36,999 bases of DNA from Chloroflexota bacterium (GTDB taxonomy: Bacteria > Chloroflexota > Anaerolineae > 4572-78 > J111): positions 1 to 36,999 of the forward strand of contig JAIFLK010000034.1 of NCBI GenBank assembly GCA_020049115.1. Direction: 5' to 3'. Under the pieces are notes generated by a model. It was not told the DNA's origin. It searched no databases and saw only the letters and a program-made list of their open reading frames with translations. Positions 268 to 36,815 of the stretch are shown piece by piece (the stretch's first letter is position 1; every line of letters begins with the position of its first letter). A program made the position numbers and the translations under genes.

Positions 268-2979
268 CTATACCTGCAACTGCACGCTAAAGCGTACCGT
301 CGTCCCCTGGCCCAACTCACTCTCCACCCAAATATGGCCGCCACTTTTGATAACCAATTCCTGACAAATGATTAAGCCCAAGCCCGTCCCCGTCTCCTTC
401 CCCGTCCCCACCGTTGTCACATGTTGGTCAATCTTAAACAATTTCTGCTGCGTGGCCTCATCCATGCCCACACCTGTATCAGTAATGGACACCTCGACAT
501 AATGAGGAATGAGGAATTGGGAATTAGGAATTATTAATTCCTGACTCCTAATTCCTAATTCCTCATTCTTAATTCCTATCGTCACCTGACCCCCTGGCGG
601 GGTGAATTTCAACGCGTTATTCGTTAAATTACGAATGATGGTATTCAACATGTTCTCATCTCCATACACCATAACCCCAGGCGCAATCTCATTTAATAAC
701 GTAATTTCCTTAACCTTGGCGACCTCACTCAACACATGCACCGTTTGTTGCGCCACCCCACTCAAATCCAATGACTGGGGCTGATACTCCATCCGCCCCA
801 TTTGCAAGCGCGCCCAATATAACAAATTCTCTAACAACTCAAAAACCCGCCGCGCCGACCTATCCACGGCTGTACTCATCTCTCGCACATCGTTGGGTGT
901 TAAATTATCCGCCATCTCCATCATCAACTCCAAATTCCCTAACAACGGTAAAAATGGCCCCTTCAAATCATGCGCCAAAATGGAGAAAAATTTATCTTTA
1001 TCCAAATTTAATTTAACCAACTGTTCATTGGCCTGCTGTGCTTCTTCATACAAGCGCACATTGTTCATGGCGGTGGCGGCTTGGTCGGCAAAACTCCGTA
1101 ACAACTGCACATCTTCCTCATGATAAGCCCCCACTTGGAAATTATCCAACGTCAGCACGCCCAAAACGGTACGCCCCAGTAACAACGGCGCGCCCATCCA
1201 AGCCCGAATCATGCGGCTGTTTTCCCAAACCTCCCATCGTGGGTCTTCACACACATCGGCAATCAAAATCGGTTGTTGCTCACGAAACACTTGCGCCACA
1301 GGGTTAATAGAATTGATTGAAATACGACTGCCAATATAACTTTCAGCATACCCCGTGCCCCGAGTCAACACCAGGTCAGACCCATCCTGCAAAAAGACAC
1401 TCGCGCCATTATATTGAATAACTTTTCGTAACTGGCTCATGATTTCGGCTAATACTTTATCCCTATCCAAACTACTGTTCAGCATAATCGCCACTTGGTG
1501 CAAACTTTCCGCCACTAGCCGTTGGCGTTGCTCCGACGTGAATAAGCGCGCATTGGTTAAAGCCACCGCCACCTGCCCCGCCAAAGAACGTAATAAACTA
1601 GCATCACCCTCATCTAAACCACCAATATTATCACTCTGCACATCCAACACCCCCACCACCTGACCATCCCGAATAATTGGCACCGCCATCTCCGCCTGAG
1701 TTTCAGGTAACAATGGATTAGGCAACCAATTTTCCACCGCCCGTACATTAGAAACACTCACCACCTGACTACTACGCGCCGCTTGCGCCACCAAACTAAT
1801 CGGCGCATCCAACGAAATGGCATGTCCCCGCTGTTTCATCACCCGCGCCGCCTCGCCCGTCCCTTCCGCCATGATTAATTTCGTTTGAATTGGGTCAACC
1901 AAATAAATATGCACATGATAATAATTAAAACTAACCTTAATGCGATTAACCAATTCAACTAATAACCGATTAAAATCAAGCAAACCATTCAACTGCTCAC
2001 TCAACAAGGCCACCACCTCCAACCGCTGAGTACGCTGTTCCACCCGTTGTTCCAACTCCACATTTAACTTCACCAACTGCTCATTGACCTGCCGCGCCGC
2101 ATTATATAAACGAGCATTACGAATAGCCACCGCCGCATGATTAGCAAATATTTGTAAAATAGACACCTCGGCCTCATCATATCTATTCGCCGTAAAACTA
2201 TCCACCGTTAACACCCCAATTGATTCACCCTCTATCACCAAAGGCGCGCCCATCCAACTAGCAATGGGGTCGCTCTCCGTCCACACTCGCCACCGTACAT
2301 CATGTTTCGTATTCGCTATCAACATACGCTTTTGGCTATTAAATACCATGACTCCAGAGCTACTATCGGTCAACAGCAACGTATTACCCAAATAGGTCGC
2401 CGCAAAACCAATGCCATGCGATACCACCAACTGTTGATTTTCATGTAATAAAACAGAAGCCCCATCAAAAGGCACCACCCGCCCCAATTGTTCCATAATT
2501 ATTTGCAACAATTGCTCCTGGTCTAAGGTACTGTTCAAAACCCTAGATATTTTTCGTAAGCTATCAGATATTTTACGCTGCTGTTGCTGTTCCCGCAACA
2601 AAGTCATCAACCGTAAATGGGTCATAATCCGCGCCAATATTTCGCGATATTGAATCGGTTTCATAATATAATCCACCGCCCCAGCCTCAAACCCCTTCAC
2701 TTTATCCTCTTCACTAGCCAAAGCCGTCATAAAGATAACAGGAATATCTTTAGTTTCTGCATGCGCCTTCAACCGACGGCAAGTTTCAAAGCCATCCAGC
2801 CCAGGCATCATCACATCTAACAAAATAATATGGGGATTCACCAAATGGGCTATCCTCAACCCATCTTCACCATTTAAAGCAGTAACAATATCAAAATCAT
2901 GTTCGCCAAAAAAATTGACTAAGACCTCCAAATTAGCAGGAGTATCATCCACAATTAAAATGGTACTATTTGTAACCAT
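268..2979 (-). CDS. REC-GAF-GAF-GAF histidine kinase
   Basis: Soluble sensor kinase of 903 residues with no membrane segment. An N-terminal receiver domain spans about 5-125, with acidic pair D11/D12, phospho-acceptor D55 (IILLDVMMPG), T85 and K107. Three GAF domains follow at about 155-290, 335-480 and 505-645; the first and third resemble each other more than the second. The DHp helix has H670 in AHDLKGPF, the HDL[KR]GP variant of the H-box. The ATPase domain (about 760-900) has N788 (NLTNNALKFT), DTGVG at 834 and GTGLGL at 863, so it looks active. Residues about 804-826 are a repeat-derived insertion (see finding). The ATG at 2979 is preceded by AAGGA seven bases away. A 273-base repeat-bearing gap separates it from the kinase upstream. 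The receiver domain in front of a kinase suggests its activity is set by phosphorylation from another kinase (inference). Confidence 0.93.
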   Translation of the reverse strand: MVTNSTILIVDDTPANLEVLVNFFGEHDFDIVTALNGEDGLRIAHLVNPHIILLDVMMPGLDGFETCRRLKAHAETKDIPVIFMTALASEEDKVKGFEAGAVDYIMKPIQYREILARIMTHLRLMTLLREQQQQRKISDSLRKISRVLNSTLDQEQLLQIIMEQLGRVVPFDGASVLLHENQQLVVSHGIGFAATYLGNTLLLTDSSSGVMVFNSQKRMLIANTKHDVRWRVWTESDPIASWMGAPLVIEGESIGVLTVDSFTANRYDEAEVSILQIFANHAAVAIRNARLYNAARQVNEQLVKLNVELEQRVEQRTQRLEVVALLSEQLNGLLDFNRLLVELVNRIKVSFNYYHVHIYLVDPIQTKLIMAEGTGEAARVMKQRGHAISLDAPISLVAQAARSSQVVSVSNVRAVENWLPNPLLPETQAEMAVPIIRDGQVVGVLDVQSDNIGGLDEGDASLLRSLAGQVAVALTNARLFTSEQRQRLVAESLHQVAIMLNSSLDRDKVLAEIMSQLRKVIQYNGASVFLQDGSDLVLTRGTGYAESYIGSRISINSINPVAQVFREQQPILIADVCEDPRWEVWENSRMIRAWMGAPLLLGRTVLGVLTLDNFQVGAYHEEDVQLLRSFADQAATAMNNVRLYEEAQQANEQLVKLNLDKDKFFSILAHDLKGPFLPLLGNLELMMEMADNLTPNDVREMSTAVDRSARRVFELLENLLYWARLQMGRMEYQPQSLDLSGVAQQTVHVLSEVAKVKEITLLNEIAPGVMVYGDENMLNTIIRNLTNNALKFTPPGGQVTIGIKNEELGIRSQELIIPNSQFLIPHYVEVSITDTGVGMDEATQQKLFKIDQHVTTVGTGKETGTGLGLIICQELVIKSGGHIWVESELGQGTTVRFSVQLQV

Positions 2980-3038
2980 GTTCTTTTCCTTTACAACACC
3001 TTAATTTATCTTATTCAATCTAATCGTCGCCCCAGGAG

Positions 3039-3079
3039 GGCGAAAGTTTTACTTTCGCCTGTCAAAATGAAATTTTGAC
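3039..3079. terminator. Two adjacent stem-loops downstream of the 3253-5439 kinase gene
   Basis: GGCGAAAGT / ACTTTCGCC (3039-3047 with 3051-3059, loop TTT) is followed at once by GTCAAAAT / ATTTTGAC (3061-3068 with 3072-3079). Both stems are perfect. They sit between two genes of the same strand and may end the upstream transcript; no strong U-run is seen, so this is tentative. Confidence 0.4.
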
Positions 3080-3127
3080 ACTCCAGTTTATGCCCTCACA
3101 CCGTATAAAATGATTAGCTATTGCTTT

Positions 3128-3262
3128 GTTCATTTAATTTCTAGTATATCCGAACAGACAGGAATGTCTGTTCTACCGCTGGTAGGTCGGACATTCTTGT
3201 CTGACCATGTACCTGGTAGGTCGGACATTCTTGTCTGACCATGTACAAAAAATTAAATGAAC
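3128..3262. mobile_element. 135-bp MITE-like element with 13-bp terminal inverted repeats
   Basis: The ends GTTCATTTAATTT (3128-3140) and AAATTAAATGAAC (3250-3262) are perfect inverted repeats. Inside are a hairpin (GAACAGACA / TGTCTGTTC, 3152-3173) and two exact tandem 34-bp units at 3179-3212 and 3213-3246, each an imperfect palindrome. There is no coding capacity. The right end supplies the final codons and stop of the kinase gene. A related half-element is at 11661-11709 in the opposite orientation. Confidence 0.7.
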
Positions 3263-5439
3263 AGTCCACTATTGACGGCTAAAGACATAGTAAACCAAAA
3301 TTCTGCCCCATGCCCCACGTCACTTTGCACCCCGATTTGCCCGCCATGCAAATGCACCAACTCCCGACAAATCGCCAACCCTAAGCCCGTACCACTATAA
3401 AGCCGCCCATCAGACATATCGACTTGTTTAAATTTCTCAAAAATTTCGCCTTGTTGCGCTAAGGGAATCCCGATGCCCGTATCAATCACCGCAAAACGGG
3501 CTTGCTGGTCACTGAGGCGCGTGACCTTAAGGCTGATTTGTCCCTGAGAAGTGAATTTAATGGCGTTATTAAGCAAGTTTAACAAAATCTGTTTCAAACG
3601 GGCGCGGTCAGCATAAACCAAAGGCATGGCGGTTGGTATTTGGCGTAATATTTTGATAGGCTTGTCGGCCAACAAAGCGTTACTTTCCGCCATCACTTCC
3701 TCTAAAATTTCTACACTATCAATTGGCTCTAAATTGAGGCTGATTTGCCCCGACTCAATTTGGGAGATAGCCAAAATATCATCAATTAATTCTAGCAGAT
3801 GTTGTCCATTATCATGAATCCGTTGGACATCAGCCTTCACAGACTCGGCGGCCTCACCACTTAAATCTTGTAATATGAGTTCAGAAAAGCCATTAATGGC
3901 ATTAAGTGGGGTGCGGAGTTCATGGCTGATAACCGTAATAAATTGCGATTTGGCTTGGTCTAATTGTTGTAATTTGAGAATGGTGGCTTGTTTCTCCGCT
4001 ATCATAAAATTAAAGGATTGGGTAAGATAGCCAATTTCATCTTGATAGCGCACGGGAATTTCAATGGCCGATACATCTTGATTAGCTTGCCGTACACCAT
4101 CTAACAACGCATTTAGCGGAGTAACGAGATTGGTACGAAAAAACAACGGGAAGATGATAATAATAAATAAGCTACTAACTATCATCAGTAATAAATGTCC
4201 CTTGATGACATTCTGCGTAATTTGCTGATAACTCCTATCATCTAACCCCACTTCATAGCGTTGTTGGTCACGCTCAAACGTATAAGCACTATATTTTGAG
4301 ACCCTAAAATTATCGTCATAACGCCGAAAAGTGTCCACCTGAAGAGCCGTAACCTGTGCAAATTCATTCACATAACTTACCGCAATGGCGGGGGCAAAGC
4401 GACCAGGCACTTCTTGGCGGACTTTATCTTGTATCACGAGATATTGCAACAGGTCAAAATCAACCTGACGGGCAAATAAACGGTGATAAGCAGTGGGTTC
4501 GTTGATGGGGCGACTGACAATATAAACAATCGGGGCGGGTAAATCTGAAAATGTTTGACGTAAGATAGCTTGATAAGCCAAAACCACATCGGCTTGGCGT
4601 TGCGCCTCTGCTTGAAAATCGAGCTGTTGCGCGGTGATAAGGCCAATAAAGCCGAAATTAACCAGCAAGGCCGTTAAACTGATGCTGACCAATTTTACAA
4701 TAAAAGTAATTCGTTCAGTGGCATGATTAAGAAATACTAAAAACAAAACAAGGGTCATCAACAGCAGGCCGAGATTAATTAAATAGGTTTCAAAAACAAT
4801 GCTTATCAAGCCTGCCCGACGGAGTGGCTCACCGAAGCCAGGCAAGAAGCCAATTAATAAGGCTAACGCAAAGTTGCGGAGAGCTTTCGCTTCAGGGGTC
4901 GGTGGCCTGAAAAGCATTTTTACGCTTTGGCTGATAGAATTGATGGGCAAACCGCCCCAATAAAGCGATTGGCGTAATAAGACAACCACCGTAAAAAAGA
5001 TATAAAGGGGAATGATTAAAAACATGAACAAGCTAATCTGGGCCATAGCGACGGTAAATGACGGATTTTGCAGAATAAGCCCCATCAAATAAAGCCCTAA
5101 CCCCACCATGAATAACCCGCCCAAGCTAGAGCCAAATAACACAATCTTACTTTCGCGCGGTCGTGAATGAATGGGAAAATAGTAGGCAAATTGCATGAAA
5201 AATAGTAAACTGAACAGCGCAAAAATAACAATCCCTGGCTCAATCATAATTGACCACATCGGACTAAGAAAGAGAAAAATAAATAGTAACGTTAAATTCG
5301 CCAAAAAGCCCATAAATAACCAGGTAGAGGGCTGTTTATGCTTCACTTGGGCTAAATAAAAAATACACGTTAGACCCAAAATAACGAGAGCAAAACGAGG
5401 TACGGATTCGTAATTTAAGTTAAATTGGAAGGGCAACAT
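3253..5439 (-). CDS. Membrane histidine kinase, multi-TM N-terminus + HAMP + HisKA/HATPase
   Basis: From the ATG at 5439 the product is 728 residues. About eight hydrophobic helices fill residues 15-267. An extracytoplasmic stretch of about 145 residues follows, then another membrane helix (about 416-435), HAMP (about 436-485), DHp with H506 (SHELRTPLN) and an ATPase domain with N625, DTGIG at 653 and GTGLGL at 683. The multi-helix block before a HAMP region resembles membrane sensors seen on bacterial kinases and adenylate cyclases; its ligand is unknown. Start choice: GGGAG lies eight bases before this ATG. An in-frame GTG at 5454 with AGGTGA nine bases upstream would add five residues and is the alternative. 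The last three codons and the stop TAA lie in the terminal inverted repeat of an inserted element (3128-3262), so the original C-terminus may have been replaced. Confidence 0.92.
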   Translation of the reverse strand: MLPFQFNLNYESVPRFALVILGLTCIFYLAQVKHKQPSTWLFMGFLANLTLLFIFLFLSPMWSIMIEPGIVIFALFSLLFFMQFAYYFPIHSRPRESKIVLFGSSLGGLFMVGLGLYLMGLILQNPSFTVAMAQISLFMFLIIPLYIFFTVVVLLRQSLYWGGLPINSISQSVKMLFRPPTPEAKALRNFALALLIGFLPGFGEPLRRAGLISIVFETYLINLGLLLMTLVLFLVFLNHATERITFIVKLVSISLTALLVNFGFIGLITAQQLDFQAEAQRQADVVLAYQAILRQTFSDLPAPIVYIVSRPINEPTAYHRLFARQVDFDLLQYLVIQDKVRQEVPGRFAPAIAVSYVNEFAQVTALQVDTFRRYDDNFRVSKYSAYTFERDQQRYEVGLDDRSYQQITQNVIKGHLLLMIVSSLFIIIIFPLFFRTNLVTPLNALLDGVRQANQDVSAIEIPVRYQDEIGYLTQSFNFMIAEKQATILKLQQLDQAKSQFITVISHELRTPLNAINGFSELILQDLSGEAAESVKADVQRIHDNGQHLLELIDDILAISQIESGQISLNLEPIDSVEILEEVMAESNALLADKPIKILRQIPTAMPLVYADRARLKQILLNLLNNAIKFTSQGQISLKVTRLSDQQARFAVIDTGIGIPLAQQGEIFEKFKQVDMSDGRLYSGTGLGLAICRELVHLHGGQIGVQSDVGHGAEFWFTMSLAVNSGLFI

Positions 5440-5478
5440 ACCAAAGACTCCCACTATCTAGCGTCACCTGAATGAACT

Positions 5479-5571
5479 TACAAGGACTTACGCAAACACT
5501 AAGTCTACCCCCCTTAGTCCCCCTTTATGCCCGAATGGGTACGACATCAGGGGGAGAAGTTGCTCCCTCTC
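5479..5571. repeat. Intergenic repeat region before the 3253-5439 kinase
   Basis: This contains the motif AGGACTTACGCAAA (5481-5494), whose near-match is inverted at 27515-27528, and a C-run/G-run pair (CCCCCTT and CAGGGGG). No gene is seen. Confidence 0.4.
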
Positions 5572-5597
5572 CTACGTAGGAGAGGGTTGGGGTGAGG
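5563..5597. repeat. Palindromic G/C repeat of the GGGGTGAGG family
   Basis: A perfect 22-base palindrome (5565-5586, CCCTCTCCTAC mirrored) is followed by GTTGGGGTGAGG. It encodes the last residues and the stop of the AAA-ATPase-like gene. Related copies are at 208-240, 10321-10349, 27481-27514 and 29789-29868. Confidence 0.75.
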
Positions 5598-7521
5598 TTT
5601 TACGGACAACGCTTTTATATTCCTGCCACACCAAACGGTCATAGCCCACCGACACCACGACATAACAACGCAATTTCAAAAAGCCCACCCCATACACCTG
5701 TTGCAATTTCTCACGATAAATTTTTAGCTGTTTCTTCGCCTTCGTCAAAGCCGATTGCACGGGTTTCAAGGCCAATAACTCAACTTGACTCATGGCCGCC
5801 ACCTGCTCACCCGTTAATTGATGTTTCCCTAACGGGACATACTTAAACTCAATTAAAATATCTAACAAGGCCGAGTGGCGTAAATCAGGCCGCACCAGCA
5901 TGATTAAATCCCCGTAATGTCGCCCAATCGCTGGCTCGGAATCCATGATATAAAACGTATCATTAAATAATAAGGTTAAAAATACGGTCTTAATGGTCAA
6001 CTCATTGGTCGCCTCATAATCCCGATTGGCAAACACCTTAAATTGTTTCCGTTCAATAAATTCACACAGCGGCCCCATCTCCCCTTTTTGATACAATTGC
6101 CGCGTCACCTGTCGCGCCTCATCAATCTCTTGACCCAACGGTAACATTAACTCAAATAACTGTTCAGCGTAGAGCTTCCGTATCACCAAATTAGGAATTT
6201 GCAAAATCAATTCTTCATAAATAGTACGCTCACGGCTCAACGTGACCACCCCAAAAAAATATAACAACGAGGCCATGAAGGTCGTGTCATGCTCTGGCTT
6301 CAACATCTCCACCACCCCAAAACGGTTGGCTAATTGGCTAATCACCAGCGGCTCATGCTCGCCCAAAAGTTGCGTAATGAGTTCATAACCATGCGGCAAT
6401 TGAGCAATATAAGCAATTTTATTCCTATCCATCGCTAAATTATGGTCTAATATCTGTGACGGAAATTTACATTCGCGCTGTAAATATTTCAAAAAATATA
6501 AGACTAAGGTTGGGTTATAAAGTTTCCCCCCCTGTAAATAATTCGGGGATTTAGTCATCAGGTGACTTGAAGTCACCTGATGACTAGACCACATCCCCTG
6601 TAAATTTACAGGGGGAAGTTTTTCAGAGCTACCCCCTGCTACAGGGGGGAGGTCATAACTAAAGCTATAGCCATTATAAAATGTTCGCATCATCGTTAAA
6701 CCCTCCTCGACCTGCTCCGCCGAAAAATGGCACTGTTGACCAATTTGAGCTAACACCGCGGCCACTTCCGTTTCCTTAAAGCCACATAAATCATTAAACT
6801 GGTGCATAGAATAGATATTTTCCGAAATATTAAAGCCGCTCGTAATATCACTCATCACCACCGGCGACACCCCCGTAATAAACACACGGTCAATCCCCTG
6901 CCCTTCCGTCCCAAATTTAATGGCCCGAAAAATCGTCTTCAGTAGCCCCTCCCCTTTCACCAACGCCTCATACCGTTCATGGCTATCCCCATGCCCCGCC
7001 ATTAACACCTCATTGGCAAAATTGTCATATTCATCAATTAACAAATAAATCTTATACGGGGTACGCGACACCGCCGCCAAAATTGATTGAAATGAACGTA
7101 ACCCATCTGTTGGGTCAAGCTGAATTTCGTGGTCAAAATAGTCACGATAGGCTTGAATAAACTGTTCGGCTTGACCATTCAAATGATTATGTAACTGTTG
7201 CTTAATCTCAGGAATATCGCCCGTTGTATCAATCAGCGAGAAATTCCATTTCAAAATGAAATATTTATTATGGCGCGGCGTGGGTTTCTGCCCAATGGCT
7301 AAATGACCAAACAAAAGGTCAAACTCAGGAGCGCGCCGTATATCGTAATAATTATGCAATACCGACACCCACAGACTCTTCCCAAAGCGGCGCGGCCGCA
7401 GAAACAGCAACACGCTGCCCACCGACTCCATAGTCTCAATTGCGGCGGTACGGTCAATATAAAAATAGTCCTCCTGGATTATCTTGTAAAAATCAGCATT
7501 ACCGTAAGGAAGTCGTATCAT
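5572..7521 (-). CDS. AAA-ATPase-like / PD-(D/E)XK nuclease-superfamily protein
   Basis: About 649 residues of the AAA-ATPase_like (PF09820) plus C-terminal PD-(D/E)XK (PF08011-like) family, which is amplified in some large bacterial genomes; its cellular role is not established. A P-loop-like RPRRFGKSL is at about 42-50, Walker B IYLLIDEYD at about 158-166 and a sensor strand FITGVSPVV near 214. The nuclease-fold motif is GD at 537-538 and EFK at 558-560. Start choice: the ATG at 7521 has GGAGG five bases upstream. An upstream ATG at 7533 abuts the stop of the preceding kinase gene and itself contains that GGAGG, so it is less likely. Residues about 291-332 are an in-frame palindromic insertion between conserved FYNGYSFSYD and KLYNPTLVL. 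The C-terminus (KTSPQPSPT) is read from an intergenic repeat, whose palindrome supplies the stop TAG. It is probably co-transcribed with the kinase 12 bases upstream. Confidence 0.88.
   Translation of the reverse strand: MIRLPYGNADFYKIIQEDYFYIDRTAAIETMESVGSVLLFLRPRRFGKSLWVSVLHNYYDIRRAPEFDLLFGHLAIGQKPTPRHNKYFILKWNFSLIDTTGDIPEIKQQLHNHLNGQAEQFIQAYRDYFDHEIQLDPTDGLRSFQSILAAVSRTPYKIYLLIDEYDNFANEVLMAGHGDSHERYEALVKGEGLLKTIFRAIKFGTEGQGIDRVFITGVSPVVMSDITSGFNISENIYSMHQFNDLCGFKETEVAAVLAQIGQQCHFSAEQVEEGLTMMRTFYNGYSFSYDLPPVAGGSSEKLPPVNLQGMWSSHQVTSSHLMTKSPNYLQGGKLYNPTLVLYFLKYLQRECKFPSQILDHNLAMDRNKIAYIAQLPHGYELITQLLGEHEPLVISQLANRFGVVEMLKPEHDTTFMASLLYFFGVVTLSRERTIYEELILQIPNLVIRKLYAEQLFELMLPLGQEIDEARQVTRQLYQKGEMGPLCEFIERKQFKVFANRDYEATNELTIKTVFLTLLFNDTFYIMDSEPAIGRHYGDLIMLVRPDLRHSALLDILIEFKYVPLGKHQLTGEQVAAMSQVELLALKPVQSALTKAKKQLKIYREKLQQVYGVGFLKLRCYVVVSVGYDRLVWQEYKSVVRKTSPQPSPT
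6526..6651. repeat. In-frame palindromic element inside the AAA-ATPase-like gene
   Basis: About 126 bases made of nested palindromes: a perfect 33-base one (6553-6585), a perfect 20-base one CCCCTGTAAATTTACAGGGG (6595-6614) and CCCCCTG/CAGGGGG (6632-6648). Its layout matches the intergenic element at 22162-22284. It adds about 42 codons without breaking the frame. Confidence 0.8.
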
Positions 7522-7533
7522 TTTAGCCTCCAT

Positions 7534-10134: not shown

Positions 10135-10170
10135 ATGTTCATTTAGTTATTCCAGGATAAGCGGAGTTTT

Positions 10171-11618: not shown

Positions 11619-11660
11619 ATTTTTCTCCAAAATCGTAATAATTCAAAATAATAGTGCCAT

Positions 11661-27225: not shown

Positions 27226-27277
27226 GATAAATTTCCTCTATTGATACGTAGGAGAGAGAGCAAAATAAATTAAAGTC

Positions 27278-27415
27278 TCAATATAGTAAAAACTCTGACA
27301 ATTCATGCACTATTGCCAGAGTTTCAGTTTGAGCTGGTTGAGCCTTAACAAACCAACTTAAACTGAGGCTCACCATTATGCCTTGAACTGCCCCTTGTTC
27401 AAGTACTATTATCAT
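27278..27415 (-). CDS. Possible 45-residue small ORF, unrecognised
   Basis: An open frame from ATG at 27415 to TGA at 27278, preceded by AAAGGT about nine bases before the ATG. The product starts MIIVLEQGAVQGIMVSLSLS and is moderately hydrophobic with an acidic C-terminal part. It is not recognised. The same DNA forms two consecutive stem-loops (27291-27323 and 27324-27366), so the frame may be incidental to a structured leader or repeat. It lies 52 bases before the GTG start of the GAF kinase. Confidence 0.25.
   Translation of the reverse strand: MIIVLEQGAVQGIMVSLSLSWFVKAQPAQTETLAIVHELSEFLLY
27291..27366 (-). promoter_or_regulatory. Two consecutive stem-loops in the leader of the GAF kinase
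   Basis: The first stem pairs 27291-27302 with 27312-27323 (11 of 12). The second pairs 27324-27339 with 27351-27366 (14 of 16). They are adjacent without a gap. They could be a structured leader or a repeat; no known riboswitch was recognised. Confidence 0.35.
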
Positions 27416-27547
27416 GAAATTTTACCTTTATACACAAACTTCCCCCCCTCTCTCCCCCCCAAAGGGAGGGAAGTTTTGCTCCCTCTCCCATAGGGAGAGG
27501 GCTGGGGTGAGGGGTTTGCGTAAATCCTATTCTTAAATAATCGTTAG

Positions 27548-29731
27548 TTATCCGCGCACTTGGTTATTTCTCTGCACCGTAAATTTGACCGTCGTCCCCT
27601 GCCCCAACTCACTCTCCACCCAGATACGGCCCGCATTACGCTCCACCATTTCTTTACATAAAATTAAGCCCAAGCCCGTCCCCTTCTCATTCGCCGTGCC
27701 AGTAGTGCTATGATGAACCCCTGTTTGAAATAGTTTTGCCTTATCCTCAGAACTCATCCCCACCCCCGTATCATTAACCGACACTTCAATGCCCCCCCCT
27801 GAATCACCCCCAACAGAGGTAGCTACTTGACGAGCAGAAATAGTCACCTGCCCCGCCGAAGGCGTAAATTTCAGCGCGTTGTTCGTTAAATTACGGATAA
27901 CCGTGTTAAGCATATTTTCATCGCCATAAATCCAAGTATCATGGGCGACGGTACTTTGTAACACAATGCCCTTACTTTTCGCCGTTTCACTTAATAAATT
28001 AACCGTCTCCGCCGCCAAATGTTGCAAATCAATCCGCTTCGGTTCATATTCAATCCGCCCCATTTGCAGCCGCGACCATTGCAATAGGTTTTCGAGCAAA
28101 CTCAAAATCTGTTTGCCAGAACGGTGAATAGCCGCGCTCATAGCAATAACCTCCGTTGGCGGCAACGTTTCCGCCAATTCCATCAACAATTCGGCATGCC
28201 CAAGCAATGGTTGGAAAGGGCCTTTTAGGTCATGTGCCACAATTGAGAAAAACTTATCTTTATCTGCATTCAAACGACTCAATTCTTCATTGGCCTTTTG
28301 CATGGCCGCTTCCATCTGCTTACGCTCAGTAATATCATGGGTAATAGAATTACGGCCTGTTAACTGTCCCTTTTTGTCATAATGAAAAGTAATATTCCAA
28401 AACAGGTGAAAAACCTCACCACTGATACGATTGACCTGACGATTTTCAAAGGTAGCTGTAAAAGCATGTTGTTGCTCCCAAGCAGTAAAGGCTTGCTCCG
28501 TGCGCTCACGGTCATCAGGATGGGTAAAATCAATCGCCTTTAAGCCAAAACAAGCCGTCGGGCTAAGACCATAAATTTTCTTCGCCATGTGATTAACATA
28601 AGTGAAGTAACCCTCCCGATTAACCTGGGTGATAAGATTATCTGTCCCTTCAACCACCTCCCGAAATTTAGCTTCACTTTCACGCAATTCAACATATAAG
28701 GCGTTCATGCCTTCATAAAGTTTAGCATTTTCTAAAGAAATAGCGACCTGTCCCGCAAGAGAACGTAATAAATTCGCGTCATTTTCATCAAAACTTGCCA
28801 ACTTAATTTCACATACATTTAATACCCCTAACACTTCACTTACGGCAATAATTGGCACAGTCATCTCACAGCTAAATTGCACCCCCGCCGCCGACGGCCC
28901 ATTATTTACCAACATCACCTCACCCATACGGGCCGATTGTGCCACCAAACTATTTTCATCACCCAAAGAAATCGTATGTTGGGGCAGCCAGGCACTATCA
29001 TCACTTTGCCCCGCTTTCATAATTAATTGGTCATGGGCATCATCTAAGATATAAACTTGAACTTGATAATAGCCAAAATTATCCTTAATTTGATGCACTA
29101 ACTCCACTAAAAGTTGGTCAAAGTCAATAATAATATTCAACCGTTCACTAAGTAACGCAATCACTTCGAGTTGCCGCGTTCTATTTTGCACCAATTGTTC
29201 TAAATGATTTCGATATTGACTTAACTCCTTATCTAACTGCTTTTGGTGGCTAATATCCCGTACTACTAAAACCGCAAAACTCCCATGGTGGCTCTGCGTT
29301 TTAAGCGCAACCCGTCGCATCTGCCCATGCAGATAGCGGTCTAAATAACCGTCATAAAACTCAAGTTCCGCCGACTGCCCCAAGAGTATTTGTTGCCACC
29401 CTTGCTCTAACCAGGTCAGCAAAGGGCATAATTCCCCTTCGCAATCAGGGTGTAATAATTGATGCGCCAACTTACCTTTAAGATGAACCACTGCGCCTAA
29501 GCCCCAGGTTTCAATGGTACGATTAGCTCGTACCACCCGTTGCTGCTCATCCAATAAACAAATTAACTCAGGTAAAGCGTCGGCTGTCGCCTCCCATTCC
29601 TGTTTAGCTTGCTCAATTTGCGCCCAACTATCGCCATAATTAGCCGCTTGCAATTCTAATTCAGCCACTCGCTGCCGCAAAATGGCTACTTCAGGGGCTA
29701 AATTGGGTTGAATTTCGTCGTTTTTATTCAT
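27548..29731 (-). CDS. PAS-GAF-PAS histidine kinase
   Basis: From the ATG at 29731 the product is 727 soluble residues. A coiled coil (about 8-45) precedes a PAS-like domain (about 46-168), which carries HPDC and a further Cys five residues on that could bind a cofactor or be redox-active (speculative). GAF is about 205-340, PAS about 352-470 and DHp has H500 (AHDLKGPF). The ATPase domain has N618, DTGVG at 654 and GTGLGL at 684. Residues about 636-647 (ATSVGGDSGGG region) are a loop insertion related to that of the kinase at 14382-15536. Start choice: an in-frame GTG at 29794 would add 21 residues but lies inside a dispersed repeat, so ATG is preferred although its Shine-Dalgarno is weak. 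It stands alone, with repeats on both sides. Confidence 0.92.
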   Translation of the reverse strand: MNKNDEIQPNLAPEVAILRQRVAELELQAANYGDSWAQIEQAKQEWEATADALPELICLLDEQQRVVRANRTIETWGLGAVVHLKGKLAHQLLHPDCEGELCPLLTWLEQGWQQILLGQSAELEFYDGYLDRYLHGQMRRVALKTQSHHGSFAVLVVRDISHQKQLDKELSQYRNHLEQLVQNRTRQLEVIALLSERLNIIIDFDQLLVELVHQIKDNFGYYQVQVYILDDAHDQLIMKAGQSDDSAWLPQHTISLGDENSLVAQSARMGEVMLVNNGPSAAGVQFSCEMTVPIIAVSEVLGVLNVCEIKLASFDENDANLLRSLAGQVAISLENAKLYEGMNALYVELRESEAKFREVVEGTDNLITQVNREGYFTYVNHMAKKIYGLSPTACFGLKAIDFTHPDDRERTEQAFTAWEQQHAFTATFENRQVNRISGEVFHLFWNITFHYDKKGQLTGRNSITHDITERKQMEAAMQKANEELSRLNADKDKFFSIVAHDLKGPFQPLLGHAELLMELAETLPPTEVIAMSAAIHRSGKQILSLLENLLQWSRLQMGRIEYEPKRIDLQHLAAETVNLLSETAKSKGIVLQSTVAHDTWIYGDENMLNTVIRNLTNNALKFTPSAGQVTISARQVATSVGGDSGGGIEVSVNDTGVGMSSEDKAKLFQTGVHHSTTGTANEKGTGLGLILCKEMVERNAGRIWVESELGQGTTVKFTVQRNNQVRG

Positions 29732-29788
29732 AATTTCTAGTTTCTCAGGAGGTTGAAATTGGGTCACACCATTTACTGGGGTAACATA

Positions 29789-29868
29789 CCTCACCCCCAG
29801 CCCCTCTCCTACTTAGGAGAGGGGTGATAAATTACTCCCTCGCCCTTTGGGAGAGGGTTGGGGTGAGG
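29789..29868. repeat. Inverted pair of GGGGTGAGG-family repeats
   Basis: CCTCACCCCCAG (29790-29801) faces GTTGGGGTGAGG (29857-29868). Between them lies an 11-bp hairpin, CCCCTCTCCTA/TAGGAGAGGGG (29801-29824). It separates the REC-GAF-GAF kinase from the PAS-GAF-PAS kinase and may act as a terminator. It also contains the rejected GTG start at 29794. Confidence 0.65.
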
Positions 29869-29872
29869 TGTT

Positions 29873-32203
29873 TTAAGGCTTGGCCTGTTTCAAGGGCAAA
29901 ACCACATGGAAATGACTCCCCTGGAGTTTTTCCTCATCATACCCTGCACTTTCCGCCCAAACCCGTCCCCCATGAGCTTGAATAATACCCTTAACAATCG
30001 CTAACCCCAAACCAGGGCCGCCACCTTTAAAGTTCGTTTGCCCCGTTGAATGAAGCATGGCCGAGCCAGTTTGATAAAATTTCTCAAAAATTTGTTCATG
30101 GTGAGTCGGGTCTATCCCAATGCCCGTATCACTCACCACAATTTCCACGGCCTCGTCCCCGTTAGTTTCGGTAATGGCTTGCCCACTCACCCAAACCTTG
30201 CCGCCATCAGGTGTATATTTAATCGCGTTCATCAACAAATTATAGAAAACTTTATCTAGCAAATCAGGCGCAGCCTCAATAATAGGTAACTCTTTCAAAT
30301 CATCTATCTCCACCATCAATTGCCGTTCCTTCAAACCTGCTTGAAAGCGTGATTTTACTTTTTGTAATAAAGACCCCAAAACCACAGGTTCGGCCCGCAG
30401 TTCTAATTCTTGCGTATCAATCTTAACCACATCCAGCATCACATTTACAATTTGATACATGCGGTCAACGCCACTGACAATGCCTTCTAACAATTCTTTG
30501 GCGTTCGCGTTCCCACTCACCCCAGGCATAATATTCAACAATTGCGTATACCCTTTAATAACCGTTATGGGCGTGCGTAACTCATGGGAAGTCACTTTGA
30601 TAAAATCGGTTTTATTCGTATTCAACCGTTCCAAAATATGGTTCGTTTTATTAAGCTCTTCCGTGCGTAAGGCTACTTTTTGTTCCAGCACCGCATTAAG
30701 TTGATTAATCTGGTCATAAAGACTCGCATTTTCCAACGCAATAGCGGATTGAGCCGCAAAACTTAACACCAAATTCGCGTCCTCTTCATCAAAGCCCCCC
30801 ACTTCGGGCCGCGTCAGCGAAATCATGCCAATGACCCGATGTTTAGCAATTAACGGCACCCCTAACCAAGAATGATTCATGGGCAACCAGTCTAACTGTC
30901 GCCAGCCCACATCTTTAGAAACATCATCAATTAAAACATATTGCCTAGATTCCGCAATTCGCTTATAAACATCACCGTCACTAATCGGAATAGTAATATA
31001 ACCCGCCCGTTCATCATCAGGATACCCCCGTTGCGAAACAATTTCTAATTCATTCCCTTGTTGTAACATCACCGAACCACGTTCATACGGCACTACACTG
31101 GACAATAACTCCAAAATACGGCTAGGGGCTTGATGTAAATCCAAATTACTCGACAACATCCGCCCCGTTTCTTCTAACGTTTCAGACAACCGCCGCCGCC
31201 GTTGCTCGGCTTTATATAACTCAGCATTACGAATAGCAATCGCAATTTGGTCGGCTAAGGTTTGCAAAACCACTTGGTCTTCGCCACTAAAAGCCGCCAC
31301 TTGCCGACTATGAATATCTAAAATACCGATAATTTTTTGTCCAATATGAAGCGGCATGACCAATTCAGAACCCGTATCGGGCAATTCATAACTAGGCAAA
31401 TAATTAGCGTCCGTCCGCACATCATCCGCTAAATAAGGCCGTTTATTACGATAAACCCACGTCACAATACTGTTTCCGCCATCCAACGAAATCGTAACAT
31501 TTTGTTTAGGTAACTGCAAACCATATGAATGGGCATGGGCGCGCAAGGCCAACGTGTTAGTCCGACTATCTAGTAACCACACCCCCACAAAATAATAGCC
31601 AAATTGCACCTGAATCAATTGCACCACTTTCTCTAACAATTCATCTAGGTTAAGAGTTGAGGTGGCTTGGCGCGCCACCTGGCTACTGGTTTCTAGCTGA
31701 ATGGTTTGTTTGAGCAGAGAATTATTGGCTTCTTGCAAATCCTGCGTCGTTTCCTGTAACTCTAGATTTTGTTGCTGAAGGTTACGGGTTAAATCACGAA
31801 TCCGCAAATGGGTATTCACGCGGGCTAACACCTCGGCATGGTGCAATGGTTTAATCACATAATCCACCGCCCCCACCTTAAAGCCATTAATTTTGTCTTC
31901 AGGTTCAGCCAAAGCCGTCATGAAGATAACGGGAATGTCTTGGGTTGCCTCATTTTCTTTGAGCTTTTGGCATGTTTCAAACCCATTAAGACCAGGCATC
32001 ATCACATCCAATAAAATCAAATCAGGCTTCACAAATTCAACCTTCTTCAACGCGCTATCGCCACTACGAGCCACCAAAATTCTAAACCCTGACCCTTTTA
32101 AGTAGTTTGATAATACGCCTAAGTTCGTGGGATTATCATCCACAATTAAAATGGTATGTTCATGACTTGTTGAGGGTATTTCATTTTCTAGTTCCAGGCT
32201 CAT
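29873..32203 (-). CDS. REC-GAF-GAF histidine kinase
   Basis: A soluble kinase of 776 residues. The receiver domain (about 15-132) has D22/D23, D66 (LILLDVMMPG), T96 and K118. A coiled coil is followed by GAF domains at about 185-330 and 355-497, then DHp with H540 (SHELRTPIT). The ATPase domain has N659, DTGIG at 692 and a distinctive FKGGGPGLGLAI G2 box near 725-736. This kinase core differs from all others in the cluster (YTPDGG, KFYQTG), so it seems to be a separate lineage recruited here rather than a recent tandem copy. The start overlaps the stop of the upstream membrane kinase in an ATGA, with AGGGGGG seven bases before it, a sign of translational coupling. A pair of inverted repeats lies just past its stop. 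Confidence 0.94.
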   Translation of the reverse strand: MSLELENEIPSTSHEHTILIVDDNPTNLGVLSNYLKGSGFRILVARSGDSALKKVEFVKPDLILLDVMMPGLNGFETCQKLKENEATQDIPVIFMTALAEPEDKINGFKVGAVDYVIKPLHHAEVLARVNTHLRIRDLTRNLQQQNLELQETTQDLQEANNSLLKQTIQLETSSQVARQATSTLNLDELLEKVVQLIQVQFGYYFVGVWLLDSRTNTLALRAHAHSYGLQLPKQNVTISLDGGNSIVTWVYRNKRPYLADDVRTDANYLPSYELPDTGSELVMPLHIGQKIIGILDIHSRQVAAFSGEDQVVLQTLADQIAIAIRNAELYKAEQRRRRLSETLEETGRMLSSNLDLHQAPSRILELLSSVVPYERGSVMLQQGNELEIVSQRGYPDDERAGYITIPISDGDVYKRIAESRQYVLIDDVSKDVGWRQLDWLPMNHSWLGVPLIAKHRVIGMISLTRPEVGGFDEEDANLVLSFAAQSAIALENASLYDQINQLNAVLEQKVALRTEELNKTNHILERLNTNKTDFIKVTSHELRTPITVIKGYTQLLNIMPGVSGNANAKELLEGIVSGVDRMYQIVNVMLDVVKIDTQELELRAEPVVLGSLLQKVKSRFQAGLKERQLMVEIDDLKELPIIEAAPDLLDKVFYNLLMNAIKYTPDGGKVWVSGQAITETNGDEAVEIVVSDTGIGIDPTHHEQIFEKFYQTGSAMLHSTGQTNFKGGGPGLGLAIVKGIIQAHGGRVWAESAGYDEEKLQGSHFHVVLPLKQAKP

Positions 32204-35052
32204 GCGGATGCCCCCCTATATTCTTCCAATAAAGCAATCATTTTTTCCTCTTCAAACTGACCCGCCAACTCCAGCAATTGCTGCCCAAAGGGTTTGAATT
32301 GCGCCTCAGTCTGACAAAGTTGCGTCACTTGGGCTTCTAAATTATCAAAATCACCGATCTCAATTAAACTTAATAACAAGGTCAATATCTCAGGTGACGG
32401 CGGAATAATTTTTTCAGCCACAGGGTCAGTAGGGGAAATCGTTGATAGTATCGATACAGTTTCCTGCGAAGGCGTTGGCTCAACCGACTGGTTTGAGAAA
32501 CTAACGGCTAAGGGCAAATCAAACCAAAAGGTGCTGCCCTGTCCAACCTGGCTTTTGACATGTAATTCCCCGCCCATGATACCCACAAATCGTTGGCTAA
32601 TGGTCAAACCCAAACCCGCCCCGTCCGCTTGGTCACGCCCACCACCCACCTGCTCAAAGGGCAAAAATATCTTTTGCAACTGTTCAGGGCTAATCCCAAT
32701 GCCACTATCTTCAACCTCAAACCGCACCGTCGCCGAATAATTATCCGCCACATATTTGGTTTTGAGCGTATCCGCTAATATTCCCACCCGAAAGGTAATA
32801 TGGCCCTGTTCCGTAAATTTAACCGCGTTGCCTAACAAATTAATTAAGGTTTGGCGCAATCGTTTTTCATCCGCAAAAATAGTGGTCGGTAACGCCGAGG
32901 TAGTCTCAAAATTGGCGGCCAAGCCCTTATCCATCGCCCGAAAACGACACATATCAAACACTTTATCCAAAAATAGCTTAAAATAAAACTGGCTAGGTTG
33001 TAACTCCATTTTATGCACTTCAATCCGCGAAAGGTCTAACACATCATTAAGTAAAGTTAATAAATGCTCACCGCTGCGTTGAATAACATGCAGATGAGAC
33101 TGTTGGACAGGAGTTAAATCCCCCTCCTTACTTAAAATTTGGGTAAAGCCTAACACGCCATGCAAGGGGGTACGTAATTCGTGGCTCATACTCGCCAAAA
33201 ATTCACTTTTTGCCAGACTCGCTGCCTCCGCTGATTCCTTCGCTTGGGCCAACTCTAACGTTTGTTGTTCCAATTCCAACCGCTTTTGCTCCAACTCTAA
33301 CGCCCGTTCTTGCAATTGCAGATTAGCAGATTGTAATGCCGCTTCAGCCCGATGTCGCTCCTCTAATTCTTGTTGCACAATATTATATAAACGGGCATTG
33401 TGCATCGCAACCCCCAATTGGTTCGCCAATGAACGTAACAAACTGGCATCACCTTCATCTAGCCCACCCGCATGGTCTTCCTGCACATCCAACACCCCCA
33501 CCACATGCTCTTCCTCAAAAATCGGCACGCACATTTCCGCCCGTGTATCAGGCAAAACATCAATTTGCAGCCATGTTTGGGTCGTAGTTAAATCATTTTC
33601 CCAAACCACTTCCCCATCACGGGCGGCACGAGCAATTAAACTTTTAGGGTGGTTCAGCGGAATGTTAAAGCCACTTGCTTTCAACTTAAAGCCCGCCTCG
33701 CCCGTACCCGTCGCAAAAAACAGATGTTGCCGCGTTTCATCAAATAAACAAACCGTCGCATAATAATAACCAAAATTGGAGTTAATCTGATTAACCACCA
33801 CATTAAGTAACTCTTGTTGGTCAAGAATAGCATTTAATTTTTCACCCAGAGCCGCCACCAATTCTAGCCGCCGCGTCCGAGATTTGACCCGTTCCTCTAA
33901 CGAACCCACCAAATTTTGGAGTTGCGTTGCCATGTCATTAAAAACAATTGACATGGTAGCAAACTCGCGTGGGCCACTCACCTGCGCCCGTTTCCCCAAA
34001 TTACCCTGCCCTAATTCTTGGGCCACCCGCGTCAGTTGCCTTAAAGGTTGGCTAATCCGTTGGGTTAAAAACCAGCCCGTCAAACTCGCCAACCCCAAAG
34101 CCAACATGGCCGTAAATATTAAAGCCCTGGTGCTTTGACGGCTAATATTTTCTAAACGCAGCCGAGCAACCGTTAACGCCTTAGACCCAGCCTCATCTAA
34201 ACGGTGCGTCAATTCATTAATTTTTTCCGTTACTTCCCGAAAAATCCGTGTATTAATGTCAATATTTTGCTCTAACACCACCAACCGACTTAAAGTATCG
34301 TCATACCCATTTATCTGCTCAATTAAATCGTCCCCCACGAGGCGATGTCCCCCGCCCGTTAAATCAACGTCTGAGCTTTTTTTCACAATTTTTATGAACT
34401 CTATCACCCACAAATGAACTTTATCTAAACTTTGTTGATTACGGGTATGAAAATAGGATTGCTCATTCGCCCGAATTTGCAGAATCACTCGGTCAAGTTT
34501 AACTCTCGGCAAAGGAACAACCAATGTTTCTAAATCGGTCAGTTGTTTTTGCAACTTACGGTCTAACCCATTGGCCTGACTACGTTCTTCAACCTGAGAT
34601 ACCGTGGCTAAAAAAGCCCGTTGATATTCATCTAACAACGGCTTTAAGGCGTTAGTATCCTTAAGCAAAGCCTGTAAATTGGCACTTTCAGACTTAGCAA
34701 TCAACTGGTTGACCTCATCCAATTTAAGATGAGCTTGCGCTAAAGCATCTTGGTTAGGGATAACATAGCGCGTACTCGCCGCTTGATACCCAAGACGCGA
34801 CCATGTATTAAGAAAATTGGCTTCACTTTGCCGCGCCAATAAAAAATCATTCTCAATTTCTAGACTCAATTCACGCACATGGTTGGCTTCCTCAAAGGTT
34901 GTTTCCACCCCAATTTGTAAATTTCGCAAGCTAACAAAACCAATCACCGCAATAATCAAGGCCAACGCCAAAATGAGGCCAAAGCCCAAAATAAGCTGTG
35001 CCTTAATGGATGATAACCGATATTTCCAGCTTGCAAAAATTTTTTGTGCCAT
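32200..35052 (-). CDS. Membrane histidine kinase with HBM-like helical sensor, HAMP, GAF and C-terminal helical module
   Basis: From the ATG at 35052 the product is 950 residues. TM1 is about 18-42. A long all-helical extracytoplasmic domain (about 44-305) has two RxxExxF/Y-type segments (ARQSEANFL and RANEQSYF), as in helical bimodular (HBM) sensors that bind organic acids. TM2 is about 308-330, HAMP about 331-385, GAF about 408-556, then a long coiled coil and DHp with H624 (SHELRTPLH). The ATPase domain has N742, DSGIG at 782 and GAGLGL at 811. The last part (about 883-946) is the shared helical module. A GTG at 35070, overlapping the previous stop by one base, would add six residues but has no clear Shine-Dalgarno. 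It is the middle gene of a tight three-gene unit, flanked on both sides by REC-kinases that could be its phosphotransfer targets (inference). Confidence 0.92.
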   Translation of the reverse strand: MAQKIFASWKYRLSSIKAQLILGFGLILALALIIAVIGFVSLRNLQIGVETTFEEANHVRELSLEIENDFLLARQSEANFLNTWSRLGYQAASTRYVIPNQDALAQAHLKLDEVNQLIAKSESANLQALLKDTNALKPLLDEYQRAFLATVSQVEERSQANGLDRKLQKQLTDLETLVVPLPRVKLDRVILQIRANEQSYFHTRNQQSLDKVHLWVIEFIKIVKKSSDVDLTGGGHRLVGDDLIEQINGYDDTLSRLVVLEQNIDINTRIFREVTEKINELTHRLDEAGSKALTVARLRLENISRQSTRALIFTAMLALGLASLTGWFLTQRISQPLRQLTRVAQELGQGNLGKRAQVSGPREFATMSIVFNDMATQLQNLVGSLEERVKSRTRRLELVAALGEKLNAILDQQELLNVVVNQINSNFGYYYATVCLFDETRQHLFFATGTGEAGFKLKASGFNIPLNHPKSLIARAARDGEVVWENDLTTTQTWLQIDVLPDTRAEMCVPIFEEEHVVGVLDVQEDHAGGLDEGDASLLRSLANQLGVAMHNARLYNIVQQELEERHRAEAALQSANLQLQERALELEQKRLELEQQTLELAQAKESAEAASLAKSEFLASMSHELRTPLHGVLGFTQILSKEGDLTPVQQSHLHVIQRSGEHLLTLLNDVLDLSRIEVHKMELQPSQFYFKLFLDKVFDMCRFRAMDKGLAANFETTSALPTTIFADEKRLRQTLINLLGNAVKFTEQGHITFRVGILADTLKTKYVADNYSATVRFEVEDSGIGISPEQLQKIFLPFEQVGGGRDQADGAGLGLTISQRFVGIMGGELHVKSQVGQGSTFWFDLPLAVSFSNQSVEPTPSQETVSILSTISPTDPVAEKIIPPSPEILTLLLSLIEIGDFDNLEAQVTQLCQTEAQFKPFGQQLLELAGQFEEEKMIALLEEYRGASA

Positions 35053-35069
35053 GATAATATCTCGAAACA

Positions 35070-36815
35070 CTAATTCTGCGCCAAAGGAATGGTAAATTTA
35101 ACCACTGTCCCTTGATTGATTTCACTCTCAATCCAAATTTGTCCCAGATTCTGCTCAATCATTTCTTTACACATCACCAACCCTAAACCCGTTCCCTTCT
35201 CTTGCGCCGTACCTAACGTAGTATGATAAATATCTAGCCGAAATAGTTTGGCTAACTCATTAGGGCTAATCCCCACCCCAGTATCCGCCACCGCAACTTC
35301 TAAATAAGGCATGTTACCTACTGACTGCGGAGTAGCAGATATAACGATTTCACCACCCATCGCGGTAAACTTGATAGCGTTAGAAACCAAATTCCGAATA
35401 ACCGTATGTAACATATCCTCATCCGCATATACCTGGATAGATTGGTTGACTTCGTTATGTAATTTAATACCCTTATTAAAAGCCACTGTTCCTAATAACA
35501 TCATATTAAGGTCAATGACCATTTTCAAGTCAAGTTCTTTCGGCCGATACTCTATCCGTTTCATTTGGATTTTAGACCAACTTAATAAATTCTCTAACAA
35601 ATTATAAATATTTTGCGCCGTCCGCCGCGTGACCTCAATAGTACGTTTAACCTTATCGGGGCTGGCCGTATCCACCATTTCGGAAAGTAAATCTAACCAA
35701 CCCAGTAAGGGCAGAAACGGGCTTTTCAAATCATGAGCTAACACTGAGAAAAATTTATCTTTGCTGGCATTTAACTCGGTCAATTCCTTAGAACGTTGCT
35801 CTTCAATCTGGCGCAAATTCTTTTCTATTTGATAAAAACGTGCATTACGAATAGCAATGGCAATTTGGGTTGCCAAAATTTGCATCACCGTTCTATCCTC
35901 TAACCCAAATGTTACGGAACGGTCAAGATATATATCTAACACCCCAATCACTTCAGTGCCATAAATTAGCGGCAAAGCTAACTCAGCTTGCGCCTCTGGC
36001 AAAATATTCAACGGCAAATATTTTGCATCCAAATTCACATTATCAGTTGAATAGACATGCCCTGTTTGATAAACCCACGCGGCAATCCCATGGTTCGCGC
36101 GCGTCGAAATTTGATAGCCTAACAATTCATTAGCGGGGTTATCACTCGCACCTTCCTGATTTTTTTTACCTGTACCCGCCCGCAAAACTAAAATATCTTT
36201 AGGTTCAGTTAATAACCAAATGCCCACAAAATAATAATCAAATTTCTCTTGAATGAGCTTAACCACCTGAACCAGCAACTCCTCTAAATCTAACATGGAG
36301 GCCACTTGTTGCCCTAATTCATGGGTCGCTTCTAGTTGTTTAGCTCGTCGAGAAAGCAACTTAGCCATACGCTGTAGCCGTAAATTTTGCTCTTGTAAGT
36401 TATGGGTTAAATCTCGAATTTTAAGGTGGGTCGTGACTCGCGCTAAAACCTCAGCTTGCTGTAACGGTTTTGTAACATAATCCACCGCGCCAAACTCAAA
36501 GGCTTTCACTTTGGCCTCAGTTTCGGTCAAAGCCGTCATAAAAATAATGGGAATATCTTTCGTTAACTCATTGGCTTTCAACCGTTGGCAAGTCTCAAAC
36601 CCATCAATCCCAGGCATCATTACATCAAGCAAAATAATATCGGGTTGTACATATTGCACCCGTTTCAGCGCATTTTCACCACTGCGGGCCACTAAAATTT
36701 CAAAGCCATGATATTTAAGATAATCTGATAAAACGCCTAAATTTACCGGTGCATCATCAACAATTAAAATGGTATATTCAGTCGAGTTTGGTTCATTGAT
36801 TTTATTGATTTCCAT
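35070..36815 (-). CDS. REC-GAF histidine kinase
   Basis: From the ATG at 36815 the product is 581 residues, soluble. The receiver domain (about 13-130) has D20/D21, D64 (IILLDVMMPG), T94 and K116. GAF is about 175-327. DHp has H361 in AHDLKSPF, and the ATPase domain has N480, DTGVG at 512 and GTGLGL at 542. Start choice: AAAGGGG lies nine bases before this ATG. An in-frame GTG at 36893 would add 26 residues unlike any receiver N-terminus and is rejected. This is the first gene of the three-gene unit, and its TAG is followed within 17 bases by the next ATG. Its leader holds a bulged 12-bp hairpin and a candidate promoter. The receiver and GAF parts resemble those of the kinase at 29873-32203, although the kinase cores belong to different types. 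Confidence 0.93.
   Translation of the reverse strand: MEINKINEPNSTEYTILIVDDAPVNLGVLSDYLKYHGFEILVARSGENALKRVQYVQPDIILLDVMMPGIDGFETCQRLKANELTKDIPIIFMTALTETEAKVKAFEFGAVDYVTKPLQQAEVLARVTTHLKIRDLTHNLQEQNLRLQRMAKLLSRRAKQLEATHELGQQVASMLDLEELLVQVVKLIQEKFDYYFVGIWLLTEPKDILVLRAGTGKKNQEGASDNPANELLGYQISTRANHGIAAWVYQTGHVYSTDNVNLDAKYLPLNILPEAQAELALPLIYGTEVIGVLDIYLDRSVTFGLEDRTVMQILATQIAIAIRNARFYQIEKNLRQIEEQRSKELTELNASKDKFFSVLAHDLKSPFLPLLGWLDLLSEMVDTASPDKVKRTIEVTRRTAQNIYNLLENLLSWSKIQMKRIEYRPKELDLKMVIDLNMMLLGTVAFNKGIKLHNEVNQSIQVYADEDMLHTVIRNLVSNAIKFTAMGGEIVISATPQSVGNMPYLEVAVADTGVGISPNELAKLFRLDIYHTTLGTAQEKGTGLGLVMCKEMIEQNLGQIWIESEINQGTVVKFTIPLAQN

Follow-up and report, generated by a model that had tools for sequence, protein, structure and literature searches.

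The stretch of DNA analyzed here (hereinafter, the window) is a whole contig of 36,999 bases, with the end of the contig confirmed, denoted C27 in the host genome, which comprises 4.44 Mb in 397 contigs and is 55.9% complete. The contig carries 16 large genes, every one on the minus strand (Table 1), as called by a simple longest-ORF rule with no gene finder. Pfam detects both HisKA and HATPase_c in 13 of these ORFs, which encode proteins of 384 to 1200 aa and extend from 268 to 36893; the HisKA match in 17552-20257 falls slightly short, at 26.3 bits where the cut-off is 26.9, and the remaining 12 exceed it. These results bear out the dense, one-strand block of 13 kinases described in an earlier note on this sequence, except that the end of the block has to be moved from 36815 to 36893, where the last ORF stops. 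A receiver (REC) domain is present in five of the 13 kinases, at the N-terminus in four and at the C-terminus in one. By the H-box, seven kinases belong to class A and six to class B; among the HisKA domains of the host genome that have a readable H-box, class A (SHELRTPL type) accounts for 57 and class B (AHDL[KR]GPF type) for 32, with 29 others.

Table 1. Genes and C-terminal tail domains of the window, listed from the right end of the contig
Position	Strand	Gene or domain	Remark
35070..36893	-	REC-GAF-HK	class B (AHDLKSPF)
32200..35070	-	HAMP-GAF-HK + C-terminal tail	class A (SHELRTPL); 4-base overlap with the next gene
32215..32406	-	tail domain of 32200-35070	profile match
29873..32203	-	REC-GAF-GAF-HK	receiver-first partner downstream of 32200-35070
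27548..29794	-	PAS-GAF-PAS-HK	class B
25894..27225	-	GAF-HK	class B
22305..25907	-	dCache-HAMP-GAF-PAS-HK-REC-tail hybrid kinase	class A; SBP gene next, receiver-first rule broken
22323..22511	-	tail domain of 22305-25907	profile match
20312..22132	-	SBP_bac_5 lipoprotein	likely extracellular ligand-binding partner for the kinase that follows
17552..20257	-	dCache-HAMP-GAF-HK + tail	class B
17555..17746	-	tail domain of 17552-20257	profile match
15540..17504	-	PAS-PAS-HisKA + degenerate HATPase + tail	predicted pseudokinase; phospho-accepting His intact
15549..15740	-	tail domain of 15540-17504	profile match
14382..15536	-	REC-HK, 384 aa	class B; follows 15540-17504 after 3 bases as its receiver-first partner
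11732..14389	-	PAS-PAS-GAF-GAF-HK	class A; 8-base overlap with 14382-15536
10464..11630	-	Bmp (PnrA-like) lipoprotein	
7534..9921	-	dCache-HAMP-GAF-HK	class A
5572..7533	-	AAA-ATPase_like/PDDEXK_9	
3253..5454	-	HK, hydrophobic N-terminal region	class A
268..2979	-	REC-GAF-GAF-GAF-HK	class B; 273 bases past 3253-5454

The earlier note described all 13 kinases as intact in frame, to which a correction on the ATPase motifs of 15540-17504 has to be added: the N, G1 and G2 boxes are intact in 12 kinases and none is recognizable in this one, which keeps the histidine box SHELRTPLN. Judged by motif, the contig thus encodes 12 catalytically intact kinases and a single predicted pseudokinase. None of the 16 contig genes matches a DNA-binding, GGDEF, EAL or HPt family, in agreement with the claim that no output regulator is present; given that the window is the complete contig, this statement holds for the contig only and may reflect nothing but the position of its end.

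The host genome contains at least 131 HisKA matches and at least 150 receivers, both totals being lower bounds because 150 of 167 candidates were scored in each search; HPt matches number only five. This contig alone has 13 of the HisKA matches, about twelve times the roughly 1.1 per 37 kb expected from an even spread. The set of host sequences analyzed below consists of 101 sequences, that is, 100 fetched loci and the window, and excludes contigs with only low-ranked receiver matches (C11, C254, C339, C356, C394, C60, C2, C361 and C94).

There is no sign of the assembly artefact that the earlier note had considered as a possible source of the cluster: the internal repeat copies listed are 60-89% identical to the reference copy, with no inverted pairs, and mostly represent kinase paralogy. 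A short repeat family found between kinase genes (188-240, 27460-27512 and 29816-29868) is distinct from this paralogy, and the right end of the contig (36920-36999) is a dispersed repeat of about 80 bases with 99 matches over many contigs of the host genome, the second half of which also matches itself in inverted orientation. The AAA-ATPase_like/PDDEXK_9 gene sits within the kinase array; the N-terminus of a gene that follows a REC-kinase at another host locus (L001, 4874-6472) resembles, by eye, that of its product. RNA families and tRNAs were considered as well, and the searches found none. Conservation of the gene order in relatives, another suggestion of the earlier note, was not found: in the 11 other genomes of the family, a draw that included no genome of the same genus, nothing matches the SBP_bac_5 protein at E <= 1e-60, and a single match to the Bmp protein (33% identity) passes E <= 1e-40; a conserved syntenic block was accordingly rejected.

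A C-terminal tail domain and its distribution

Pairwise matches, followed by profile searches, identified a domain of about 62-65 aa, hereinafter the tail, at the C-terminus of four window kinases. Iterated profiles run over the 101 host sequences detected 28 copies in 27 kinases, most of which also have a C-terminal receiver. When the named loci and three relatives are counted along with the host genome, 94 of 95 copies end at most 25 residues from the C-terminus of the protein; the sole internal copy (locus L019) connects the HK-REC part of a single ORF to its REC-HK part. The alignments include 27 of the 28 host tails (L008 omitted), 64 of 65 REC-tail rows (L240:12897-13715 dropped) and 93 of the 95 tails (L240:13509-13715 and L249:8249-8422 dropped).

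No family in Pfam, against which 27 tails were compared, or in NCBIfam fits the tail; Hpt was not matched, and none of the five Hpt matches of the genome falls on this contig. When the tail sequence was searched against the PDB, the 14 matches obtained (best E 0.018) were to coiled coils and unrelated chains, and a PDB search with a REC-tail model, with receivers as the matches listed, was uninformative on the tail. The tail is predicted to form four helices (AlphaFold2, mean pLDDT 92.7, pTM 0.79). In VIA-align comparisons, five of the six best matches are HPt chains, namely, YojN of E. coli (Z 7.2, 3.1 A over 66 residues), HptB (Z 6.3), and two Chaetomium entries and YPD1 (Z 5.1-5.5), the sixth being a chain of the archaeal ArnAB complex (Z 6.6); Z scores below 13 are common among helical bundles. 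With Foldseek, every match of the tail model has an E-value of 2 or more, and a comparison of the tail profile with the five HPts of the host genome yields a probability of 2%. There is no conserved histidine in the tail, the column richest in this residue (column 15, in helix 1) having it in 19 of 93 sequences. The tail is predicted to be a four-helix bundle, as is the HPt domain (PF01627), but has neither the conserved histidine, nor a match to the Pfam profile, nor similarity to the HPt profiles of the host genome, and the possibility that it is a true HPt was rejected. On these results taken together, we describe the model as HPt-like in shape, with kinship unproven. Neither the tail nor the three-gene module discussed below was found described in the literature searched (titles and abstract openings, mostly non-subscription).

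At E <= 0.001, the tail was detected in 14 of the 31 genomes drawn from relatives, comprising all 12 genomes of the family, the host included (one of them reaching only 8.5e-4), and two others in the order. The richest genomes other than the host, with its 28 copies, encode 34, 19 and 18. Across the phylum, only two of the 121 genomes drawn, again including the host, contain the tail at E <= 1e-12. Among the 15 genomes reached via the named loci, 12 have it: there are 4-27 copies in Thiotrichaceae and other Beggiatoa relatives, 10 in Pseudanabaena biceps PCC 7429, 12 in a Spirulinaceae genome, 3 in Nostoc sp. WHI and 4 in Desulfobacterales; it is absent in Draconibacterium, a Magnetococcales genome and a Chloroflexi MAG. 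This patchy distribution suggests horizontal spread. Receiver domains common to Beggiatoaceae and cyanobacteria are reported in passages of PMC5108060, a finding consistent with horizontal transfer; these passages do not mention the tail.

Gene order, co-evolution and upstream lipoproteins

To characterize the neighborhoods of tail kinases in the host genome, we scored a receiver-first gene as next if it was on the same strand and within 500 bases. Such a gene follows 11 of the 14 HK-REC-tail kinases, with two more at contig edges, vs 3 of 15 tail-less hybrids, one at an edge (Fisher p=0.0023), and it usually encodes another kinase; for tail kinases that lack a C-terminal REC, the counts are 2 of 11 in the host and 2 of 12 in relatives. 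In this tally, one REC-HK on C297 appears as receiver-other because the L001 sequence stops at 20,000 bases. In three relatives, the loci of which were selected by the tail, the difference is not significant (25/38 with the tail vs 3/7 without, p=0.23). Among 80 named loci, all eight tail kinases precede a receiver-first gene, compared to 11 of 26 tail-less hybrids (p=0.004), both figures being conditioned by the selection of these loci with a REC-HK query; the hosts of the eight are Verrucomicrobia, Thiotrichaceae, Albibeggiatoa, another Gammaproteobacterium (two) and cyanobacteria. Within the window, two of the four tail kinases (17552-20257 and 22305-25907) break the rule. The receiver-first kinases that follow tails mostly belong to class B, with 29873-32203 and one in L020 as exceptions.

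The array in the window splits into two- and three-gene modules of a kind that is found singly on other contigs of the host genome. The earlier note had named cognate regulators adjoining the orthologous kinases as evidence against its reading, and in part these do exist: tail kinases of relatives occur beside receiver-LuxR, receiver-GGDEF and receiver-cyclase genes. A scan of ten receiver-other genes located downstream of tail kinases, nine from relatives and one from the host, showed that they encode four receiver-LuxR, two receiver-GGDEF and three receiver-cyclase proteins and one receiver alone. A receiver-kinase thus takes the position that a response regulator would otherwise have. In relatives, longer chains are observed as well, for example, HK-REC-tail followed by two consecutive REC-HK-REC-tail genes and REC-GGDEF (L215), or by REC-HK-tail and REC-LuxR (L219). 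Single HK-REC-HK ORFs, most of them ending in a tail, are present at L015, L034, L037, L223, L235, L241, L245 and L247 and represent fused two-kinase proteins.

To assess co-evolution, distance matrices were correlated for 48 kinase/receiver pairs, of which 28 and 44 entered two Mantel sets with within-genome shuffles. In the set of 28 pairs, the receiver of the next protein correlates with the upstream HisKA (r=0.585), the upstream HATPase (r=0.537, partial 0.496), the upstream protein's own receiver (r=0.484) and the tail (r=0.471); for the tail, the partial correlation controlled for the HATPase, HisKA and receiver of the same protein is 0.36 (p=0.0003). The correlations with the next HisKA are 0.233 for the own receiver, the second weakest value, and 0.212 for the tail. 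The excess of 0.585 over 0.233 favors transfer from the kinase to the next receiver; however, the HATPase, which has no need to touch the partner, correlates as strongly, so that a common history of the operon may account for much of the signal.

Among 22 tail kinases, 9 have the gene for a lipoprotein of 300-650 aa, by a simple lipobox pattern, immediately upstream, vs 9 of 639 non-TCS genes (p=3e-10); the count is 2 of 48 for other kinases and 1 of 32 for receiver-first kinases without a terminal tail. All six of the nine tail-kinase lipoproteins that were scanned with Pfam belong to extracellular binding families, including the SBP_bac_5 protein of the window, a paralog of which (55% identical) precedes another tail kinase on C347. 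Ten neighbors scanned comprise seven members of binding families (two each of Peripla_BP_6 and SBP_bac_8, and one each of SBP_bac_1, NMT1 and SBP_bac_5), a LacI regulator, a Peptidase_M23 and one protein without a match. Periplasmic-binding-protein sensor systems include LuxP/LuxQ and TorT/TorS. The window has an SBP gene adjoining a kinase and no transporter gene throughout its length, the arrangement that would be expected of a sensor of this kind; unlike in those systems or AioX, the binding proteins encoded upstream of tail kinases in a single genome come from several unrelated families. At one host locus (L017, 5936-20000), a run of minus-strand genes with sensor-like N-termini and no profiled TCS domains lies upstream of a tail kinase.

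Candidate kinase-to-kinase cascades

The typical module in the host genome consists of a lipoprotein, often an SBP, a sensor kinase, usually HK-REC-tail, and a receiver-first gene, usually for a soluble REC-kinase of the second class. We are inclined to interpret the contig as an array of cascades from ligand-sensing kinases to receiver-kinases, in which the tail would be a partner-docking domain, an interpretation that we hold to be probable on balance. In such a cascade, the lipoprotein and the Cache/HAMP parts would sense ligands; the tail kinase would phosphorylate the receiver of the next protein, with the tail holding that receiver; and the receiver would then switch its own attached kinase, which would phosphorylate a regulator encoded elsewhere. 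We infer the direction of the relay, the docking role of the tail and the role of the pseudokinase from sequence comparison. The earlier note envisaged a kinase network with a single output elsewhere; kinase-to-kinase signaling and a distant output fit the present results, but the results do not demonstrate a single network of 13 kinases, given that the array consists of two- and three-gene modules. A bolder and distinctly tentative proposal is that the tail originated as an HPt-like bundle that has no histidine and was turned into a docking domain for the receiver of the next kinase, so that every sensor kinase would address its own partner alone and kinases could be chained, in two to four steps, into cascades insulated from one another, with the patchy spread over the family, Beggiatoa relatives and cyanobacteria resulting from horizontal transfer of the whole module.

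Kinase-to-kinase signaling as such is established; what the contig adds is an array of recurring modules marked by an unrecognized domain. According to PMC3868531, a receiver of the kinase CheS3 of Rhodospirillum centenum is phosphorylated by the kinase CheA3, and CheS3 in turn phosphorylates the response regulator. This is the same kinase-to-receiver-of-second-kinase step as proposed here, in a Che-like cascade with its CheY, unlike the array in the window. We know of no tail in CheA3-CheS3. In a scheme that PMC3264485, in the passages available, itself presents as hypothetical, Hik16, Hik41 and Rre17 of Synechocystis form one pathway with two kinases and one regulator; a membrane kinase is combined with a soluble one, as here, but the kinase genes have distant locus tags, in contrast to the adjacent genes of the modules.

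The best-surviving alternative, which we consider rather unlikely, is a TRTR phosphorelay, in which the upstream kinase would pass the phosphate to its own C-terminal receiver, then to the second HisKA acting as an HPt, and on to a distant regulator. Passages of PMC3018481 by Williams and Whitworth describe alternating kinase/receiver loci as proposed TRTR phosphorelays, cite RedCDEF of Myxococcus xanthus and TodST of Pseudomonas putida as tested cases, and report that T2 of Red is unable to autophosphorylate. Here, too, transmitter and receiver domains alternate, either from one gene to its neighbor or within one protein; most tail kinases possess a C-terminal receiver, HPt domains are few in the genome, and 15540-17504, with its histidine but without ATPase motifs, resembles T2 of Red, the second transmitter of such a system being a relay station. 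In contrast to the TRTR systems covered by those passages, the second protein here is receiver-first, the upstream kinases are tailed, and the contig lacks a final regulator; moreover, the second kinases have receivers of their own at the N-terminus, those of the window also retain their ATPase motifs, the correlation of the own receiver with the next HisKA is among the weakest, and the relay leaves no role for the tail.

The cascade interpretation is also compatible with the tail being a mere dimerization or stability cap that is independent of the partner. The tail is small and all-helical, and also ends kinases that have no receiver-first neighbor; the partial correlation with the receiver of the next protein and the position of the tail at the junction of the sole fused ORF argue against a cap, which appears unlikely. 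Still less probable is the absence of any circuit, with duplicated paralogous kinases each served by orphan regulators elsewhere and neighborhoods that record duplication history, because, notwithstanding the abundance of HisKA domains and of kinase-less receiver-first genes elsewhere in the genome, the marked paralogy among the window kinases and the trace of operon history that the HATPase control reveals, the order of tail kinase and receiver-first gene recurs in distant phyla, the genes overlap or nearly touch, the tail lies at the junction of a fusion ORF, and LuxR, GGDEF and cyclase partners occupy the same position.

How crosstalk is avoided, and what role regulator-less kinases have, is an open question in genomes with more than 100 kinases. 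A marker domain predicting that the partner is the product of the next gene would make the wiring testable in kinase-rich bacteria, and, if the docking cascade is real, a receiver-kinase takes the place of the response regulator and the tail could become a docking part for synthetic biology.

To judge from its motifs, 15540-17504 is probably a pseudokinase that could still function in phosphotransfer; under the cascade model, the intact histidine would serve as a relay that replaces an HPt in its chain. By pattern, two or more ATPase motifs are missing in 8 of the 128 HATPase domains of host kinase ORFs, and 15540-17504 is the sole tail kinase among these. Four REC-first kinases with an atypical H-box (L014 14046-15485, L055 4752-6290, L071 2375-4333 and L095 8499-10023) lack two to three ATPase motifs by pattern and perhaps represent a separate kinase family.
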